Of a DNA stretch of 21,429 bases, positions 3,115 through 16,834 are shown piece after piece. A model generated the notes under the pieces. The model made no database searches and was not told where the DNA came from. It saw nothing but the letters and a program-made list of their open reading frames with translations. The DNA comes from Elusimicrobiaceae bacterium (lineage in GTDB: Bacteria > Elusimicrobiota > Elusimicrobia > Elusimicrobiales > Elusimicrobiaceae). The stretch spans positions 1 through 21,429 of the forward strand of contig JAGCKY010000033.1 of NCBI GenBank assembly GCA_017647245.1, written 5' to 3'. How positions within the stretch are numbered: the stretch's first letter is position 1; every line of letters starts with the position of its first letter. The position numbers were made by a program, and so were the translations under genes.

Positions 3115-3143
3115 ATTGTACCAAAAAAAAAAAAACAAGTCAA
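3115..3143 (-). promoter_or_regulatory. Pilin A promoter with a poly-T spacer
   Basis: On the minus strand TTGACT (3138-3143) and TACAAT (3115-3120) are 17 bases apart. The spacer consists of TG, thirteen T and GG, which also supplies the TG of an extended -10 (TGG-TACAAT). The predicted start is near 3108, giving a leader of about 115 bases. Nearly the same block, including an upstream CGTCGG plus A-rich stretch, precedes pilin B. Confidence 0.8.
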
Positions 3144-3179
3144 GGCCTATTTTTACCGACGAAAAACCTCAATCAAAAA

Positions 3180-3212
3180 CCCCGAGGCATAAATTTTTGC
3201 CCCGGGGATTTT
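3180..3212 (-). terminator. Terminator of the M29 aminopeptidase gene
   Basis: CCCCGAGGCA (3180-3189) pairs with TGCCCCGGGG (3198-3207) with one A-C mismatch. The minus-strand reading ends in TTTTTG (3175-3180 region), and the plus-strand side also has a T run. It lies 17 bases or more after the aminopeptidase stop codon. Confidence 0.8.
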
Positions 3213-3228
3213 TACCTTTCCTTGTATA

Positions 3229-4434
3229 CTAGAAACGAAATTGGCCTTTTTCGTAAATGAGGATTTTTTTGCCGTTTTTGAGCGTGGCGTGCACGGTCTT
3301 ATCTTCCGTGTTAATCAAATCCCAATGCAAAGCAGATTCATTATAGCCCAATTTTTCTTTGAGCTTCTTATCTAATTTGCGGATATCGCCCGTAAAGGTA
3401 TCGGCGTAGCTGGAGCCAATCGCCACGTGGCAATTGCCGTATTTGCCGCCGAAATTTTCATCAAACAAAATATCTGCCATAAATTTGTCTATCTTGGAAA
3501 AACGGCGGTCCGTCAAAGAAAACTCGCCGATTTGCGCCGCGCCGCGGTCCATCGCCAGCATCTTGCGCAAAAAGTCTTGGCCTTTTTCCGCAGTTGCTTT
3601 GACCGCGCGCCCGTTTTTAAATTCCAAACGCATACCTTTGACATAATTGCCGCTTCTGTACGACGATAAATCTGCAAAATACACACCGCGTGTGCCGCGC
3701 CAATCCGGCGAGGTAAAAATTTCAAAAGACGGGATATTGCAACCGCTGCCGGAAATAAACTGACGTTTTTCCCCCAGCAACACTTCAAAATCCATGTGCG
3801 CGCTTTCCACCTGCAAACGCTCTATTTTCAGTCCGCTCAGCCACTTGCCGATTTCGCCAATTTGTTTCATCACTTCTTTCCATTTGGCCACAGGGTCTTT
3901 CTCATTTAAAAAGCATGCTTTGACAATTTGATTGGCATATTCTTTAAGCGAAAGACCTGCTTTGTCGGCTAATTCCTGTGTGGGAAAGTTGCACAAAGTC
4001 CACGAAAATTTACCGTCCTGTTCCGTGCGGTCCAACAAATCTTTAATCGGCTTGCGCGCCACCGCGGCTTTGCCGATGCGGGCCGGATTGACCGTTTTGA
4101 GTGCGGTTAAATCTTCCGGCGCGCGCAATGCAATCAGTCCGTTCAACGCCCCTTGAAAATCTATTTCCCCCGCCGGGATATAAGCCAACTGTTTATCGTC
4201 GGCCTTGGTGTACAAAGCGCGCTGTAAATTACCCGGCGCCATGAAACGCACGGTGGCATTATATTTTTTGTCTAATAATCGCTCGTATACCGCTTCCACC
4301 AACGGCAACGCGCCGATTTCCGCACGCACAAGCACATTGTCATATTTTTTAAATTTACCGCCGCGGCGGGCATATTCCATCGCCCAGACCATTACATCTG
4401 CATAATTATCTAATTGCTTTTGTGTTAAAATCAT
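3229..4434 (-). CDS. M29-family metallo-aminopeptidase (401 aa)
   Basis: Cytoplasmic two-metal exopeptidase that removes N-terminal residues from peptides (AmpS/AmpT, thermophilic aminopeptidase family). The full ligand set is visible with family spacing: Glu238 in PSFEIFTSPD, Glu304 in QIGEFSLTDRRF, His336 in GNCHVAIG, Tyr343 in SSYADTF, and His370 and Asp372 in ALHWDLI. The 66-residue gap between the two Glu, the seven residues from His to Tyr and the H-x-D pair match my memory of AmpS. Length is typical. The start ATG has AAGGAG seven bases before it. It is transcribed alone, divergently from the membrane protein at 4494, and ends at a strong terminator. The likely role is peptide turnover in an amino-acid-using anaerobe. 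Confidence 0.92.
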   Translation of the reverse strand: MILTQKQLDNYADVMVWAMEYARRGGKFKKYDNVLVRAEIGALPLVEAVYERLLDKKYNATVRFMAPGNLQRALYTKADDKQLAYIPAGEIDFQGALNGLIALRAPEDLTALKTVNPARIGKAAVARKPIKDLLDRTEQDGKFSWTLCNFPTQELADKAGLSLKEYANQIVKACFLNEKDPVAKWKEVMKQIGEIGKWLSGLKIERLQVESAHMDFEVLLGEKRQFISGSGCNIPSFEIFTSPDWRGTRGVYFADLSSYRSGNYVKGMRLEFKNGRAVKATAEKGQDFLRKMLAMDRGAAQIGEFSLTDRRFSKIDKFMADILFDENFGGKYGNCHVAIGSSYADTFTGDIRKLDKKLKEKLGYNESALHWDLINTEDKTVHATLKNGKKILIYEKGQFRF

Positions 4435-6665: not shown

Positions 6666-6693
6666 ATTGTACCAAAAAAAAAAAACAAGTCAA
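6666..6693 (-). promoter_or_regulatory. Pilin B promoter with a poly-T spacer
   Basis: TTGACT (6688-6693) and TACAAT (6666-6671) on the minus strand are separated by 16 bases: TG, twelve T and GG. It matches the pilin A promoter but is one T shorter, so the spacer is 16 rather than 17. The predicted start is near 6659. The upstream CGTCGG and A-tract context is shared as well (block 6665-6716). Confidence 0.8.
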
Positions 6694-6722
6694 GCCCTTT
6701 TTTCCCGACGAGAAAACAAAAA

Positions 6723-6752
6723 AAGCGGGAAAGATAAAAATCTTTCCCGCTT
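6723..6752 (-). terminator. Terminator of the efflux operon
   Basis: A perfect 12-bp stem AAGCGGGAAAGA (6723-6734) / TCTTTCCCGCTT (6741-6752) with a 6-base loop is followed on the minus strand by a run of T. It sits 19 bases after the RND pump stop and just upstream of the pilin B promoter, insulating the two. Confidence 0.9.
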
Positions 6753-6771
6753 CCAATCCATTCACAAAACC

Positions 6772-9700
6772 TTACGCTTTTTTGGTACGCTTGCGGTTTA
6801 TCCACTTATCTACCATTTTCTGTATCAATATGTAGAACAGCGGAATAAGAAACAAACCTGCCATCGTACCAACAAGCATTCCGTAGAACACAGGTACGCC
6901 GAGTGCGCGGCGGCTGGCTGCACCGGCTCCGGTAGCAAACACCATAGGCAGCATACCCAAAATAAAGGTAAAGGCCGTCATAAGTACCGGGCGGAAGCGC
7001 TGCGTAAGCCCATCTAATGCGGCTTCTTCTACGCTAGTGCCATGCGCTCGTTCGTCTTTGGCAAATTCCACAATCAAGATAGCGTTTTTGGCCGCCAAAC
7101 CTACTAACAGCACCAGCCCCAGTTGTGCATAAATACTTAACGATAAACCGGTAATCCAGAGCCCCAAAATACCGCCCAGTACTGCCGCTACCACAGACAT
7201 GAGCACCGGTATAGGAATAGTCATACTCTCATATTGCGCCACCAAGAACAAATAAGCAAATATAACCGCCAGCAAAATAAGCGTATTGATTTGCCCTTTG
7301 TTTTTCCTTTCCTGATAGCTCATACCGCTCCAATCATACGCATAACCGGCCGGCAAAGTCTTCAGCACGTTCTCTGTTACTTCCATTGCTTTTCCGGTGC
7401 TGGAACCCGGAGTAGGGGTGGCATTAACAGACGCGGCCGGATATTGGTTATACCGTATAATCTGACGCGGAGAAACAATATCACGCATATTCACCAAAGC
7501 ATCCAGCGGCACCAGCTCACCATGCGTATTAGCTACATACATTTTTCTAATATCTTGCGGTGTTAAACGGTAATGCCAATCCGATTGCAAAATTACCCGG
7601 TTGACCTGTGTGCCGAAGTTAACATCAGACACATAGGCAGAACCCAGATAATTTTCCAACACGGCAAAAATACTGGACACCGGCACATTCATGGCTTCGG
7701 CCTTGGCGCGATCCACCTCTAAGAAGATATTAGGAGTATCCGCCTTAAAAGTAGAATAAGCCATTTGTATAGACGGGTCCCCCATCATACGCATCGCTAT
7801 TCCATTAGTGGTATTAGCTAATTTTGTGTAATCAAAGTCATTAAGTGTCTGAATACGCAAATCCAATCCGCCAGAAGTTCCTAAGCCCGGAATAGACGGC
7901 ATTTCAATAAACCGAACAGTCGCTTCCGGAAGGGAGGCAAAGCGAGCATTGTATTTATTTGCAATAGCAGACTGTTGTTGTGCCGCTTTTTTGCGGTCAT
8001 CCCATGGTTTTAACCGGATAAAACCGATCCCTACGTTTTCTCCGGAACCGGACATCAAACTAAAACCAATAATCGTGGCCAAATGTCTAACAGCGGGATC
8101 CTCTCTTAAAACAGGTGTAATCTGATCCATCACTGCCTGCGTACGCTCAAAAGACGCTCCTTCCGGCAATTGCACATCAAAAACGACTATACCTTGGTCT
8201 TCTGTCGGAATAAATGAAGTATGCGAAAACTTTAAGAACAGCATATTCGCCGCCAAAATTGCCAAGAACAAAACAGCAATGACAACTAATTTGCGGGCCA
8301 CCGTACGCACCCACTTCTTATATCCGCGCCCCCCGCGTTGTACACTTAAGTTAAACCAACGTAGCATAAAAATCTTTGTTTCCGGAATTTTGCGCAGCAT
8401 CGTAGAACAAATGGCCGGAGATAAAGACAATGCATTTAACGTAGAGAAACACACCGCCGTAGAAATCGTGACCGCAAACTGACGATAGATTTCTCCGGTA
8501 ATACCGCCCATAAAAGTAATCGGCACAAAGATGGCCAAGATAACTAACGTCGTGGCTACCAACGCGCCGGACAATTCGCCCATAGCTTGCGTAGTGGCAT
8601 CAATAGGCGGTTGGTTTTCCTTGTTCATTAAGTAAATAACACGCTCTACCACACAAATGGCGTCATCTACCACTAGACCAATTGCGAGTACCAATGCAAA
8701 TAATGTAAACAAGTTAATTGAGTAGCCCATTGCCATCATTACTGCAAAGCTACCCAGCAAAGATACGGGAATTGTAGCAGCCGGTACAAGCGTAGCGCGC
8801 CAATCCTGCAAGAACACATAACACACGATAACTACCAAAATAAATGTCAAAAATAATGTAAAGACTACTTCATCAATAGAGGCATAAATAAATTCGGTGG
8901 TGTCCATGGCGAAATCATATTCTAAATCTTCCGGGAAAAACTGTTTTAGACGTTTCATTTCCGCCTTGACCTGCTTCATGGTTTCAATAGCGTTGGCCCC
9001 CGATGAAAGATTAATCATCATCGGAATCATTTCCTGACCATTAAACCGCGCAGAAAAACTATAGTTTTCTTGTCCTTCCTCTACTTTAGCAATATCTTTC
9101 AAACGCACTAAACCGCCTTGTTGGTCCGTGCGAATAATAATATCAGCAAATTCTTCCGCATTATTTAAACGACCCTGTGTTTGCAAAGCATATACCTTAA
9201 GCACATTGCCTTCATGCGGACGAGCCCCGATTTTACCCAAAGATGGTTGATAGTTCTGGCTATTAATGGCTTGGGTCACTTCGGCCACCGTCATATTCAT
9301 AGCCGCCATTTTATCTGGATCCAGCCACACACGCATACTTTTGGCGGCACCGAACATACGCGCTTCCCCCACGCCGTGAATACGACTAACGTTCTTTACC
9401 ACGTTGTTATTAAGATAGTCACTAATATCTAATGTAGAGTGCGTCTTGTTGGGAGAAGTAAAAGCAATCAGCCCCAAGATATTAGAGGAACGGCGAAACG
9501 TATTGACACCGCGCCGCGTGACATCGCCCGGCAAACGCGGGCTGGCTTGCGCTACACGGTTTTGTACTTTTACTTGTGCCAAATCCGGATCCGTTCCGGT
9601 TTCAAAGGTAACCGTCAGCATATAACTGCCATCGGACGAAGTAGAACTCATATAAAGCATATCTTCTACGCCGTTGACAGCTTCTTCCAGCGGGATACCT

Positions 9701-14706: not shown

Positions 14707-16002
14707 ATGAGAAATTGGATAACCTTTTTATTTTTAATGCTGGCTATAACGGCATACGCTGAAACGGTAGGCACGGTCACTGCGCAAAGCACGCGTATGT
14801 CGCCGGGTACTTTGCGGCGGCATTTTTTGCTAAAGCCCGGCGAAGAATTTTCGCAACAACGCTATGAGCAGGCACAGGATGAATTACACAAATTGCGCGT
14901 ATTTAAAAAATTGGATTTTTCCGCCACACCAAACGGCGGGCAAATGGATATTCACATTGACGCGCAGGACGGGTGGTACATTTTCCCCATGGGCTTTTTT
15001 ACGGGCGGGTCCAAAAGTGCGGGAGGCCTGTCGCTAGCCGCGGGCAATTTATTTAAGCAAGGCGAGAGCACCTTTTTATTTGCGGGCGGCGGACACGACG
15101 GGTGGACCGCCCATGCGGGTTGGGTTACGCCCAAACATTTTTTCAATTTGCGCTACACGCATTTGGATGCCGACCAACGGTTTTATCAAAATCATTGGAT
15201 GAATATACCCTCGGTATTTTCTACCGCGGATGACAAAGAAGACCACGCAGATAAACTATTACGCGAGGTCAGCGGTACGCAAGAAACGTTGGCGTTTACC
15301 TATAAGTACCGCCTTTCGCGCACGGTGCGTTTGGCCCTGCGCCCGGAATATAAATATGTATCGTATCAAAACGGGCAATTAGACGGCGGCAAACATCATC
15401 AAGTGTCTTTCGGCTTGGAATTTTCCGACGATATACGCGCGGGTATGAATATGGGCGCGCTGTCGGGTTTCGGGCTGACGGATAAAAAACAAAGTTTACA
15501 GGATTTGCCCCGCGCGCGAAGCGGCTACACGGGCGCATTGTCTTATACGGGCGGCGGCGATTTCACGGGCAGTGATTATGATATTTCCAAAATTTCGTTG
15601 AAAGCGGCGTGGCTGTTGGAGCTCAAAACACGGCATTTATTTACACTACAACTGCACGCGGAAAATGCGTTTGACGCACCGTTTAGCGATTGGATTACTT
15701 CTACCGATTTGCTCGGCGGCATGGGCCGCTACGACCGCGAGCTGCGCGGTAAACGCGGCGCGGGACTTAGTACGGCTTTTGTGTATTATTTGCTACGCAA
15801 TCAGACGGGGCTTTTATCGGTGGCGCCTTTTTATGAACTTTCCTACGTGGACACGGGCGCGGCGTATACGCCGCACAGCGGCGCGGGCGCGGCGCTGATG
15901 TATAAACTGTGGCGTTTTCCGCTCCCGTTTGGCATAAATTACACGCACAATTTACAAGACGGAAGTCACCAAGTGGGCTTTGTCATCGGCGGTGCGTTTT
16001 AA
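14707..16002 (+). CDS. Omp85/BamA-like outer-membrane protein with a single POTRA domain (431 aa)
   Basis: Outer-membrane beta-barrel of the bacterial surface antigen/Omp85 type. Residues 1-18 form a signal peptide (ending ITAYA). Residues 19-90 look like one POTRA domain: a starting strand, the helix SPGTLRRHFLLKPGEEFS, a second helix EQAQDELHKLRVFKKLDFS and the strand GGQMDIHIDAQDGW. From about 92 to the end alternating beta strands rich in Gly and aromatics follow, closing on a C-terminal Phe (GFVIGGAF), the usual barrel signal. DRELRGKRGAG with Arg347-Gly348 resembles the conserved RG motif of the Omp85 barrel. BamA has five POTRA domains; one is few, as in some accessory Omp85 proteins. 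No chaperone or substrate gene is adjacent. The stop is 20 bases before the pilin C leader promoter, with no clear terminator. Confidence 0.82.
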   Translation: MRNWITFLFLMLAITAYAETVGTVTAQSTRMSPGTLRRHFLLKPGEEFSQQRYEQAQDELHKLRVFKKLDFSATPNGGQMDIHIDAQDGWYIFPMGFFTGGSKSAGGLSLAAGNLFKQGESTFLFAGGGHDGWTAHAGWVTPKHFFNLRYTHLDADQRFYQNHWMNIPSVFSTADDKEDHADKLLREVSGTQETLAFTYKYRLSRTVRLALRPEYKYVSYQNGQLDGGKHHQVSFGLEFSDDIRAGMNMGALSGFGLTDKKQSLQDLPRARSGYTGALSYTGGGDFTGSDYDISKISLKAAWLLELKTRHLFTLQLHAENAFDAPFSDWITSTDLLGGMGRYDRELRGKRGAGLSTAFVYYLLRNQTGLLSVAPFYELSYVDTGAAYTPHSGAGAALMYKLWRFPLPFGINYTHNLQDGSHQVGFVIGGAF

Positions 16003-16021
16003 TTACACTCCGCCAATTATT

Positions 16022-16030
16022 TGCTATAAT
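16022..16030 (+). promoter_or_regulatory. Extended -10 promoter of the pilin C leader
   Basis: TG-C-TATAAT (hexamer 16025-16030) predicts a start at about 16037, inside a run of nine A (16032-16040). The transcript would have about 280 bases of leader before the pilin C ATG. There is no clear -35. Confidence 0.55.
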
Positions 16031-16098
16031 GAAAAAAAAATTAGGAGGTTTTACCGCGGCGCAACCGCATAACATTACAATTTTTATCTGTTTTTGAG

Positions 16099-16287
16099 AC
16101 CGCACAATCGGTGCGGTGTGTATAGCAGTTATACGCGAACGAGTCAAAAACAGTCGTTTTGAGGTGTAAAATATACGGACTAATTACCCGTATATTTTAC
16201 ACCGAGTGTTTGCCACTCTCGGGTGGCAGACCACGGCTGTTATACTACATCTACTCGTTCGCAGATTAGTATGAGAGCCGTTTTTTT
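16099..16287 (+). ncRNA. Structured leader RNA upstream of pilin C, candidate riboswitch/attenuator
   Basis: The 316 bases between the Omp85-like gene and pilin C hold no convincing gene but dense pairing. Small hairpins: 16099-16105/16111-16117 (7 bp) and 16120-16124/16130-16134 (5 bp). Main domain: P1 GCGAACGAGT (16135-16144) with ACTCGTTCGC (16253-16262), 10 bp; P2 AACAGTCG (16149-16156) with CGGCTGTT (16234-16241), 8 bp with one G-U; P3 16163-16178 with 16188-16203, a perfect 16 bp; P4 16211-16217 with 16222-16228. P1 encloses P2, which encloses P3 and P4. The 3' strand of P2 and the P1 strand are then reused by a U-tailed terminator. I could not match it to known riboswitch consensus sequences. 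It could also be a stand-alone small RNA of about 250 nt. Confidence 0.7.
16233..16287 (+). terminator. Intrinsic terminator within the pilin C leader, alternative to the folded domain
   Basis: ACGGCTGTTATACTA (16233-16247) pairs with TAGTATGAGAGCCGT (16267-16281), 14 of 15 positions counting one G-U, with a 19-base loop and a run of seven T (16281-16287). It lies 32 bases before the pilin C ATG. It uses the P2 3' strand and holds the P1 3' strand in its loop, so it cannot form together with P1/P2. Confidence 0.75.
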
Positions 16288-16318
16288 ATGCTAATCCGAT
16301 TTTATAAACGGAGAAAAT

Positions 16319-16834
16319 ATGAAAAAAGGTTTTACCTTAATTGAACTATTAGTAGTAGTCTTAATCATCGGCATTTTAGCCGCGATTGCCTTGCCGCAGT
16401 ACCAAAAAGCGGTCTTAAAAGCCAAATTACACACAGGCATTCCCTTGGTCGAAAGTTTATATCAAGCACAACAAGCTTATAAAATGGCTAACGGAGATTT
16501 CGCCAGTGATATTGATGATTTGGCTGTTGATGTCCCGGGAAGAGAATCTTGTACGAAAACGCAAAATATAGCTATGTCTAAGTATGCCTGCAAGTATGGC
16601 ACGATAGGAATATATGACACTGCTTCCGATGTTCAATACATTGTAAAAGGCAGTGCCATTGCTTATTTACATTATCTGAAAGATTATGAATCCGGCGATT
16701 TAGAAAGAAAAGCTGGAGAGGTTTGGTGTTTTGCGGAAACGGAAAACAAAGCCGCAAACCAAGTATGTAAGTCAATGGGTGGCACCTTTGGGAACAGCAC
16801 TCCCAACTCATGGACCAGATACAAAATCAGATAA
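16319..16834 (+). CDS. Type IV pilin-like protein (pilin C, 171 aa)
   Basis: Pilin or pseudopilin with a canonical signal: MKKG then Phe5, predicted cleavage after Gly4 (pilins A and B have Ala there), and Glu9 as mature position 5. The helix up to PQYQKAV is identical in protein to pilins A and B but uses different codons, so it is an older copy. The globular part is unrelated at a glance: LHTGIPLVESLYQAQQAYKMANGDFASDIDDL, with four cysteines (78, 91, 137, 150). The ribosome site GGAG is five bases before the ATG. Its expression is probably governed by the structured leader and terminator upstream rather than by the poly-T promoter used by A and B. A large compound hairpin ends the gene before tRNA-Ser. 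Confidence 0.9.
   Translation: MKKGFTLIELLVVVLIIGILAAIALPQYQKAVLKAKLHTGIPLVESLYQAQQAYKMANGDFASDIDDLAVDVPGRESCTKTQNIAMSKYACKYGTIGIYDTASDVQYIVKGSAIAYLHYLKDYESGDLERKAGEVWCFAETENKAANQVCKSMGGTFGNSTPNSWTRYKIR

Follow-up and report, generated by a model that had tools for sequence, protein, structure and literature searches.

A candidate transcription-attenuating leader RNA family upstream of pilin genes in Elusimicrobiota

Introduction

The third of three pilin genes (pilin C) in the stretch of DNA analysed here (the window, 21,429 nucleotides) is preceded by a leader that was predicted to fold into a closed multi-branch domain followed by a terminator, and the question that this locus raises is whether the leader is a switch, whether it is of a known kind, and what it might respond to. 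The window forms contig 18 in a fragmented assembly (1,117,011 bases, 188 contigs, 78% complete); its genome is of the same genus as Candidatus Avelusimicrobium excrementipullorum (family Elusimicrobiaceae), which also carries a match to the leader. Pilin genes have been reported in Endomicrobium and in Elusimicrobium minutum, and leaders are not mentioned in the accessible part of that paper (PMC8809381). Pilin sets are very large across the 90 Elusimicrobiaceae genomes, with per-genome figures of at least 80 at the top end, and one genome, G085, has a very large set indeed, with 108 N-methyl motifs.

From comparison of relatives and computed folding we conclude, with a probability of about 0.7, that the leader is a member of a new transcription-attenuating leader RNA family of Elusimicrobiota. 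Such a structured RNA family, which is present in dozens of copies in some animal-gut bacteria, reaches more than 100 in a 1.7 Mb genome and is located before much of a large pilin repertoire, would offer a handle on the choice of expression in bacteria with 50 to over 100 pilin genes.

Results

Anatomy of the leader

The features of the leader are listed in Table 1. Upstream lies an ORF of 431 aa (14707-16002, + strand) that has no Pfam match at E 0.001. Transcription is expected to start near 16037 from a promoter-like site; the promoter scan returned 5 sites against 2.3 in shuffles, and is thus weak evidence when taken alone.

Table 1. Features of the pilin C leader and its gene, in window coordinates
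Feature	Position	Strand	Evidence or remarks
Sigma-70-like promoter	16002..16030	+	-35 ATTACA 16002-16007; -10 TATAAT 16025-16030, TG before it; 10/12 matches
Strand A, CUGUUUUUGA	16088..16097	+	Pairs with B1; predicted anti-antiterminator
Hairpin Pa	16099..16117	+	Sequence, fold
Hairpin Pb	16118..16136	+	Sequence, fold
X, 5' strand of locus-specific stem P1	16135..16144	+	Sequence; X:Y complementarity in relatives
B1, partner of A	16144..16153	+	Sequence, relatives, fold
B2, partner of C in predicted antiterminator helix P2; overlaps B1	16149..16156	+	Fold, alignments
Hairpin P3, 16 bp	16163..16203	+	Arms 16163-16178/16188-16203; alignments
P3 apical loop ACUAAUUAC, 9 nt	16179..16187	+	Positions 3-8 of the loop read UAAUUA; kissing-dimer contact predicted here
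Hairpin P4, extended by the pair G16206-C16232	16206..16232	+	Stem 16208-16217/16222-16231
C, 3' strand of P2, common to P2 and terminator	16234..16241	+	Sequence, fold
Y, 3' strand of P1, inside terminator apical loop	16253..16262	+	Sequence; relatives
Intrinsic terminator	16234..16287	+	Stem 16234-16247/16267-16280 (3' arm includes D), T7 16281-16287
Pilin C, putative regulated gene	16319..16834	+	171 aa, PF07963 at E 5.8e-08

The architecture of the original prediction can be read directly from the sequence: P1 has 10 bp, P2 has 8 bp with one G-U, the 16 bp of P3 are perfect, P4 is present, and the terminator with its T7 run follows the domain at once. Its stem is paired at 13 of 14 positions; a simple terminator scan with an 8-nt loop limit did not list it. 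The claim that only one state can form holds for P2, with strand C common to P2 and the terminator, but less strictly for P1, which shares no strand with the terminator and competes with it by geometry since Y lies in the terminator apical loop. What the prediction had missed are the A:B1 pairing, the hairpins Pa and Pb, and the palindromic loop of P3.

The region 16125-16295 folds to -71.1 kcal/mol, where shuffled versions average -37.0 (z -9.2), and the presumed transcript 16037-16290 to -95.4 kcal/mol (z -8.1), with none of 200 shuffles as good in either case; the computed optimum of the full transcript is the terminated state including the A:B1 helix.

Two further elements lie on the 5' side of the core. 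An AGGAG or GGAGG sequence is present near the 5' end in about 76 of 244 copies (L028, L100 and L018 are examples; 16042-16047 in the window), often followed by a hairpin of the AAGCC...GGCUU type and sometimes by AUG-UAA, and it is possibly a 5' stabiliser. An A/U-rich stretch close to AAAUUUAAU is conserved just before A in relatives, as a lower-case consensus.

Distribution of the RNA family

At the gathering threshold of Rfam 15 the window contains only a tRNA, and 20 related loci likewise contain only tRNAs; the 11 hits returned at E <= 10 for 16000-16340 are all below gathering, and assignment to a known riboswitch or other Rfam class was rejected for want of an above-threshold match. 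Searching with the leader by blastn gave many strong matches among the 90 genomes of the family, and a covariance model of 101 positions (R1) was built from 27 cores taken from 30 loci, leaving out three near-duplicates. R1 matches at E <= 1e-4 occur in 79 of the 90 family genomes and are spread over 2 of its 6 genera. When the cut-off was relaxed to E <= 1e-3 and the search widened to 340 Elusimicrobiota genomes, 91 had the RNA; 79 of these belong to the family of the window and the other 12 to a single second family. Searches of this size were run with stricter filters, by which weak matches can be lost. A broader model, R2, reaches 92 of the 340; the genome gained is G103, which belongs to an additional family and matches weakly (E 9.9e-5). 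An exact core pattern applied to 84,980 bacterial and archaeal genomes, which would miss divergent relatives elsewhere, gave 44 stretches, of which 43 carry Elusimicrobi- or Avelusimicrobium names and one is from an 'uncultured bacterium'.

Copy number is uneven. Model matches at E <= 0.01 number 127 in G020, 46 in G085 and 45 in G024, some of which can be opposite-strand shadows of the kind seen in G085, and many family genomes have one to three; of the two matches in the window's genome one is a shadow of this kind, leaving a single true copy. The set of copies used below derives from 262 of 282 loci, which yielded 269 hits, 253 of them non-redundant and 251 with enough flanking sequence. 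Phage and plasmid collections and viral contigs (the latter searched with the exact pattern) gave no match at the sensitivity used, and a phage or plasmid origin was set aside within the reach of those searches. Searches of the open-access literature brought up nothing on this RNA or on pilin leader RNAs of Elusimicrobiota. Judged by those searches and Rfam 15, this is an undescribed leader RNA family of about 200 bases, and we have high confidence, from sequence analysis, in a real, new and widespread family with attenuator anatomy.

Conservation and energetics of the alternative helices

Covariation in homologues had been set in advance as the check on the prediction of a new attenuator-type leader RNA, and P1, P2, P3 and P4 all covary. 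In a structure-blind alignment of 27 cores, 96.0% of cells are paired and 24 of 36 pairs have changed on both sides, with a covariation of 0.376 against 0.210 in shuffles (a value that none of 500 reached), while slid controls do not exceed 0.102. For 79 diverse cores, the alignment of which was guided by the model and is therefore biased in its favour, the corresponding values are 95.3% of cells, 29 of 36 double-changed pairs, and 0.640 against 0.250 (0/500), with at most 0.114 when slid. P2 contributes few double changes (1 of 8 pairs in the 79 cores, none of 8 in the 27) and is kept in 97 to 99% of cells (97.3% in the 79 cores); such low variation is what would be expected if each strand has two partners to serve.

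The other strands of the switch are equally persistent. Strand A precedes the core in 251/251 copies at no more than 3 mismatches to CUGUUUUUGG and in 222/251 at no more than one; A:B1 is paired at 10/10 positions in 199 of the 251 copies and at 8/10 or better in 249, with compensatory changes such as that of the tenth pair from G-C to A-U in 20 copies. D, the terminator 3' arm, and a T-rich tail are found in 249/251, the other two being opposite-strand shadow hits. Outside the apical loop, strong conservation is seen in the dual-use strands A, B1/B2, C and D and at three or four positions of the junction, among them the adenines of columns 22 (94%), 70 (100%) and 131 (91%); the core outside its pairing strands has few strongly conserved unpaired bases. 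A terminator and an antiterminator with a strand in common are found across the family, and the attenuator architecture, in which P2 and the terminator would exclude one another, is well supported by these comparisons.

The energies of the alternative states were computed for 244 copies using ViennaRNA with enforced helices, a treatment that ignores pseudoknots, kissing and the polymerase. In a transcript ending after C, P2 beats A:B1 in 215/244 copies (mean 1.5 kcal/mol), and in one ending after Y the antiterminator beats A:B1 in 241/244 (mean 9.4 kcal/mol); at full length the terminator state wins in 208/244 (mean 3.9 kcal/mol) and the antiterminator in 36/244. For the window copy the antiterminator stands at -78.5 versus -67.5 for A:B1 after Y, and at -81.0 versus -85.0 for the terminated state at full length. 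With moderate confidence, we read these modelled energies as the profile of a kinetic switch, in which the antiterminator would form first and the terminator can overtake it.

A locus-specific stem

Stem P1 varies by locus yet its strands remain complementary. At least 7 Watson-Crick pairs form between X and Y in 244 of 249 copies in cis, as against 0.85% of 9,922 mismatched combinations. The contrast weakens when the windows are widened and G-U pairs are counted, at least 8 pairs being formed in 241/251 in cis and in 1,160/5,000 in trans. X differs between all copies compared within a genome (70/70 in G020, 29/29 in G024, 30/30 in G085). We saw no sign of selection for orthogonal X:Y stems, the within-genome trans matches of at least 7 pairs (39/4,830, 11/812 and 5/870) being close to the overall mismatched rate.

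Five of the 249 copies are without a good X:Y. One of these is L014, which has the same Y as L017 but an X that does not fit it, as if two leaders had recombined. L168 and L170 (both in G085) precede a near-identical nuclease-like start and share the same Y window with different X; X:Y is broken in L170 and needs G-U in L168.

A palindromic loop

The apical loop of P3, taken with two bases on each side, contains a 6-nt palindrome in 206 of 248 readable apices, and 36 more have one of 4 nt only. Fifteen hexamers are listed, three of which overlap others, leaving about 12; the commonest are UAAUUA (131 copies), UUAUAA (37), UUCGAA (16), UCAUGA (9), UUGCAA (5) and CUGCAG (2), and UAGCUA, UCUAGA, UGGCCA, CACGUG, UGCGCA and CUAUAG occur in single copies. 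Counting distinct apices, 43/62 have a palindrome, whereas 500 letter shuffles gave 8.7 on average and never more than 17. As controls, P4 has one in 16/172 distinct apices (2/18 among those at least 10 long), and Pa and Pb in 23/284 (2/37 among those at least 10 long).

The self-complementarity is kept by covariation. In the 79-core alignment the central adjacent columns 46-47 are complementary in 76/76 (AU 65, GC 6, CG 3, UA 2), columns 45-48 in 71/76 (AU 45, GC 11, UA 10, CG 5) and columns 44-49 in 63/75, and the loop covariation is 0.469 against 0.104 in shuffles (0/500) and at most 0.139 when slid; the number of loop pairs and the number of pair types are not above shuffles (276 and 227 of 500). 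With distinct hexamers counted once, 44 of 57 positions pair, against a mean of 18.7 and a maximum of 29 in 2,000 shuffles, and they do so only in the palindromic register (0.77, versus 0.18 to 0.32 in others).

Because adjacent bases cannot pair within one molecule, this pairing must be between two molecules or reflect a symmetric DNA site, and the covariation of adjacent bases therefore leads us to predict kissing homodimers. That the palindrome is an extension of the stem's own symmetry was rejected for most copies, its centre lying +0.5 nt off the axis of the hairpin in 192 of 215 placements; stem symmetry may account for the 3 placements with zero offset. Pairing of the palindrome with the AAUUUAAU-like stretch before A was also considered, and by eye that stretch shows no sign of tracking the loop alleles. 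Against strong dimers stand the composition of most palindromes (A-U only), their flanks, which are often pyrimidines, and the 42 of 248 copies that have no 6-nt palindrome, among which UGAUCC (21 copies) is the commonest exception.

Downstream genes and other pilin promoters

Pilins follow 178 of 249 leaders, 175 having a pilin motif on the same strand no further than 500 nt away and three being recognized by eye; outside those 175, 69 of the 249 are without a motif hit (including those three), two have one further off and three are cut short. The motif is downstream of 69/70 copies in G020, 26/29 in G024 and 19/30 in G085. By Pfam, 23 of 37 G085 leaders (E <= 1e-4) lie less than 600 nt before a same-strand pilin, compared with about 2.3% expected; conversely, most of the 108 N-methyl motifs in that genome have no detected leader. 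Fourteen other downstream proteins, a sample of our own choosing, were typed. Eight of them are two glycosyltransferases, LicD, a polysaccharide pyruvyl transferase, an outer-membrane barrel, a staphylococcal-nuclease homologue, an EcoRI-type methylase and a restriction-subunit N terminus, which fall under surface polysaccharide, outer membrane, nuclease or restriction-modification, and the other six are TPR, PH-like, TRL-like, MptE-like and phage-tail-like proteins and one without a family. The mix suggests variable, outward-facing or defence functions.

The other two pilins of the window (A and B) give only E 0.27 (6713-6783) and E 1 (3130-3233) with R1, and the presence of the same RNA before them was rejected on these weak scores and on the poly-T promoter seen there by eye. 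The pilin A and B promoters (3115-3143 and 6666-6693, both on the - strand) have T13 or T12 between -35 and -10, in the pattern TTGACTTG-Tn-GGTACAAT. There are 52 exact occurrences in the genome of the window, the listed runs being T10 to T13 and mostly T12; of the other family genomes only G038 (three occurrences) and G019 (one) have the pattern, and the remaining 87 lack it. It precedes pilins at 20/20 distinct places checked (22 hits, at overlapping loci). These look like pilin promoters that are phase-variable by slippage. Species seemingly multiply different upstream control elements, the leader RNA in G020 and the poly-T promoter in the window's genome.

Discussion

We propose that A would pair with B1 as the polymerase advances, and that when C and Y emerge, B2:C and X:Y would form as an antiterminator closing the P2/P3/P4 three-way junction. 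Once D emerges it could invade C, entering by the single-stranded segment that separates C and Y, forming the terminator and allowing A:B1 to re-form. Escape of the polymerase, and with it conditional termination, would be set by the stability of the antiterminator when D emerges; since escape depends on that stability, a factor stabilizing P2-P3-P4 would turn the gene on. Pairing of the palindromic P3 loop with a second copy of the same RNA is a candidate for such a factor. This would make the leader a self-sensing attenuator built of RNA only, in which P3 palindromes kiss, the dimer shifts the choice between antiterminator and terminator, and the gene reads the density of its own transcripts, a reading of the loop covariation that we put forward tentatively and regard as one possibility among several. 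The kissing leaders would come from the same locus or from loci with a common loop allele, and the locus-specific X:Y would keep dozens of paralogous switches from swapping strands. The palindromic alleles that occur once per genome among the copies compared (CUAUAG in G020; UCUAGA and CACGUG in G085) are consistent with transcripts of a single locus pairing with one another. If the loop does control the switch, the leader would act in cis while taking a second copy of itself as its input; we know of no bacterial example of a cis-regulator that senses its own copy.

The signal could instead be a small molecule, a metabolite or ion of an unknown riboswitch class, that binds the P2-P3-P4 junction and stabilizes the antiterminator. 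The architecture, the occurrence before many genes and the strand shared by P2 and the terminator are all traits of transcriptional riboswitches, and the few conserved junction adenines could be read in the same way; the downstream genes, however, do not form one pathway, and most of the strong conservation is in A, B1/B2, C and D, which needs no ligand because each of these strands serves two pairings. We consider a metabolite riboswitch possible but do not favour it, and the cyclic dinucleotide guessed at in the original prediction finds no support in these data. An RNA-binding protein, perhaps dimeric, that acts at P3 or the junction and picks the state would be served by the same anatomy, and the conserved AAAUUUAAU-like sequence just before A is a possible binding site, but it does not explain a loop that changes while staying palindromic, and we think control of this kind somewhat unlikely. 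It is also unlikely, and rather more clearly so, that the leader mainly yields a short terminated RNA acting in trans on other leaders or mRNAs: the near-universal terminator (249/251 copies) and loops common within a genome that could pair between loci, such as UUAUAA in 21/70 copies of G020, would suit that role, but X:Y is locus-specific with trans pairing rare, and most leaders lie just upstream of a gene in the same direction.

The high and uneven copy number (127 model matches in G020, one or two in many relatives) raises the thought that the leader has no regulatory role and is a mobile repeat, or a recombination site, spreading together with pilin genes. The covarying alternative RNA structures, the terminator facing the gene, the distinct X:Y at each locus and the negative searches of phage, plasmid and viral sequences at their sensitivity all argue against it, and we consider it very improbable. 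The context of the leaders is strongly genic, as the pilin association in G085 and across the 249 copies indicates. Hardly credible is translation-coupled attenuation of the trp type through a leader peptide. The pairing ladder is that of a trp leader and AGGAG or GGAGG lies within 75 nt before A in 76/244 copies, some with AUG-UAA; yet a Shine-Dalgarno-like site with a start codon precedes the core in only 66/244, with at least 5 codons in 41 and none constant, and in the window copy AGGAGG is not followed by ATG, GTG or TTG at a suitable spacing. A leader peptide was therefore rejected as the general mechanism.

In trp-type attenuators overlapping segments pair 1:2, 2:3 and 3:4, the last being an intrinsic terminator. 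The leader described here has the same four-segment ladder of overlapping pairings ending in an intrinsic terminator; it differs in having no conserved peptide, and adds the X:Y stem and a covarying P2/P3/P4 three-way junction. Transcriptional riboswitches are in general laid out so that a folded domain and a terminator vie for a common strand. The leader resembles them in this competition and in its predicted strand exchange during transcription, as riboswitch mechanisms are set out in the accessible part of PMC10907184. It is unlike them in having few conserved unpaired bases and in placing the P1 3' strand in the terminator loop.

Among palindromic kissing loops, the dimerization initiation site of HIV-1 has a 9-nt loop geometry. 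This site and the leader are alike in having a 6-nt palindrome in an apical loop, which in the leader is mostly at positions 3-8 of a 9-nt loop with a half-base offset; the leader palindrome varies, is mostly A-U and often has pyrimidine flanks, whereas the kissing loop of HIV-1 has conserved flanking purines, according to the accessible text of PMC7357161. Moreover, the host of the leader is a bacterium and its loop sits in an attenuator. A further parallel for the predicted contact is the Guanidine-II riboswitch, whose hairpin loops kiss and for which homodimers have been seen, as reported in the accessible text of PMC7544219; in that riboswitch guanidinium is bound by two small loops of a single RNA, whereas the leader would present one long hairpin with a variable palindrome.
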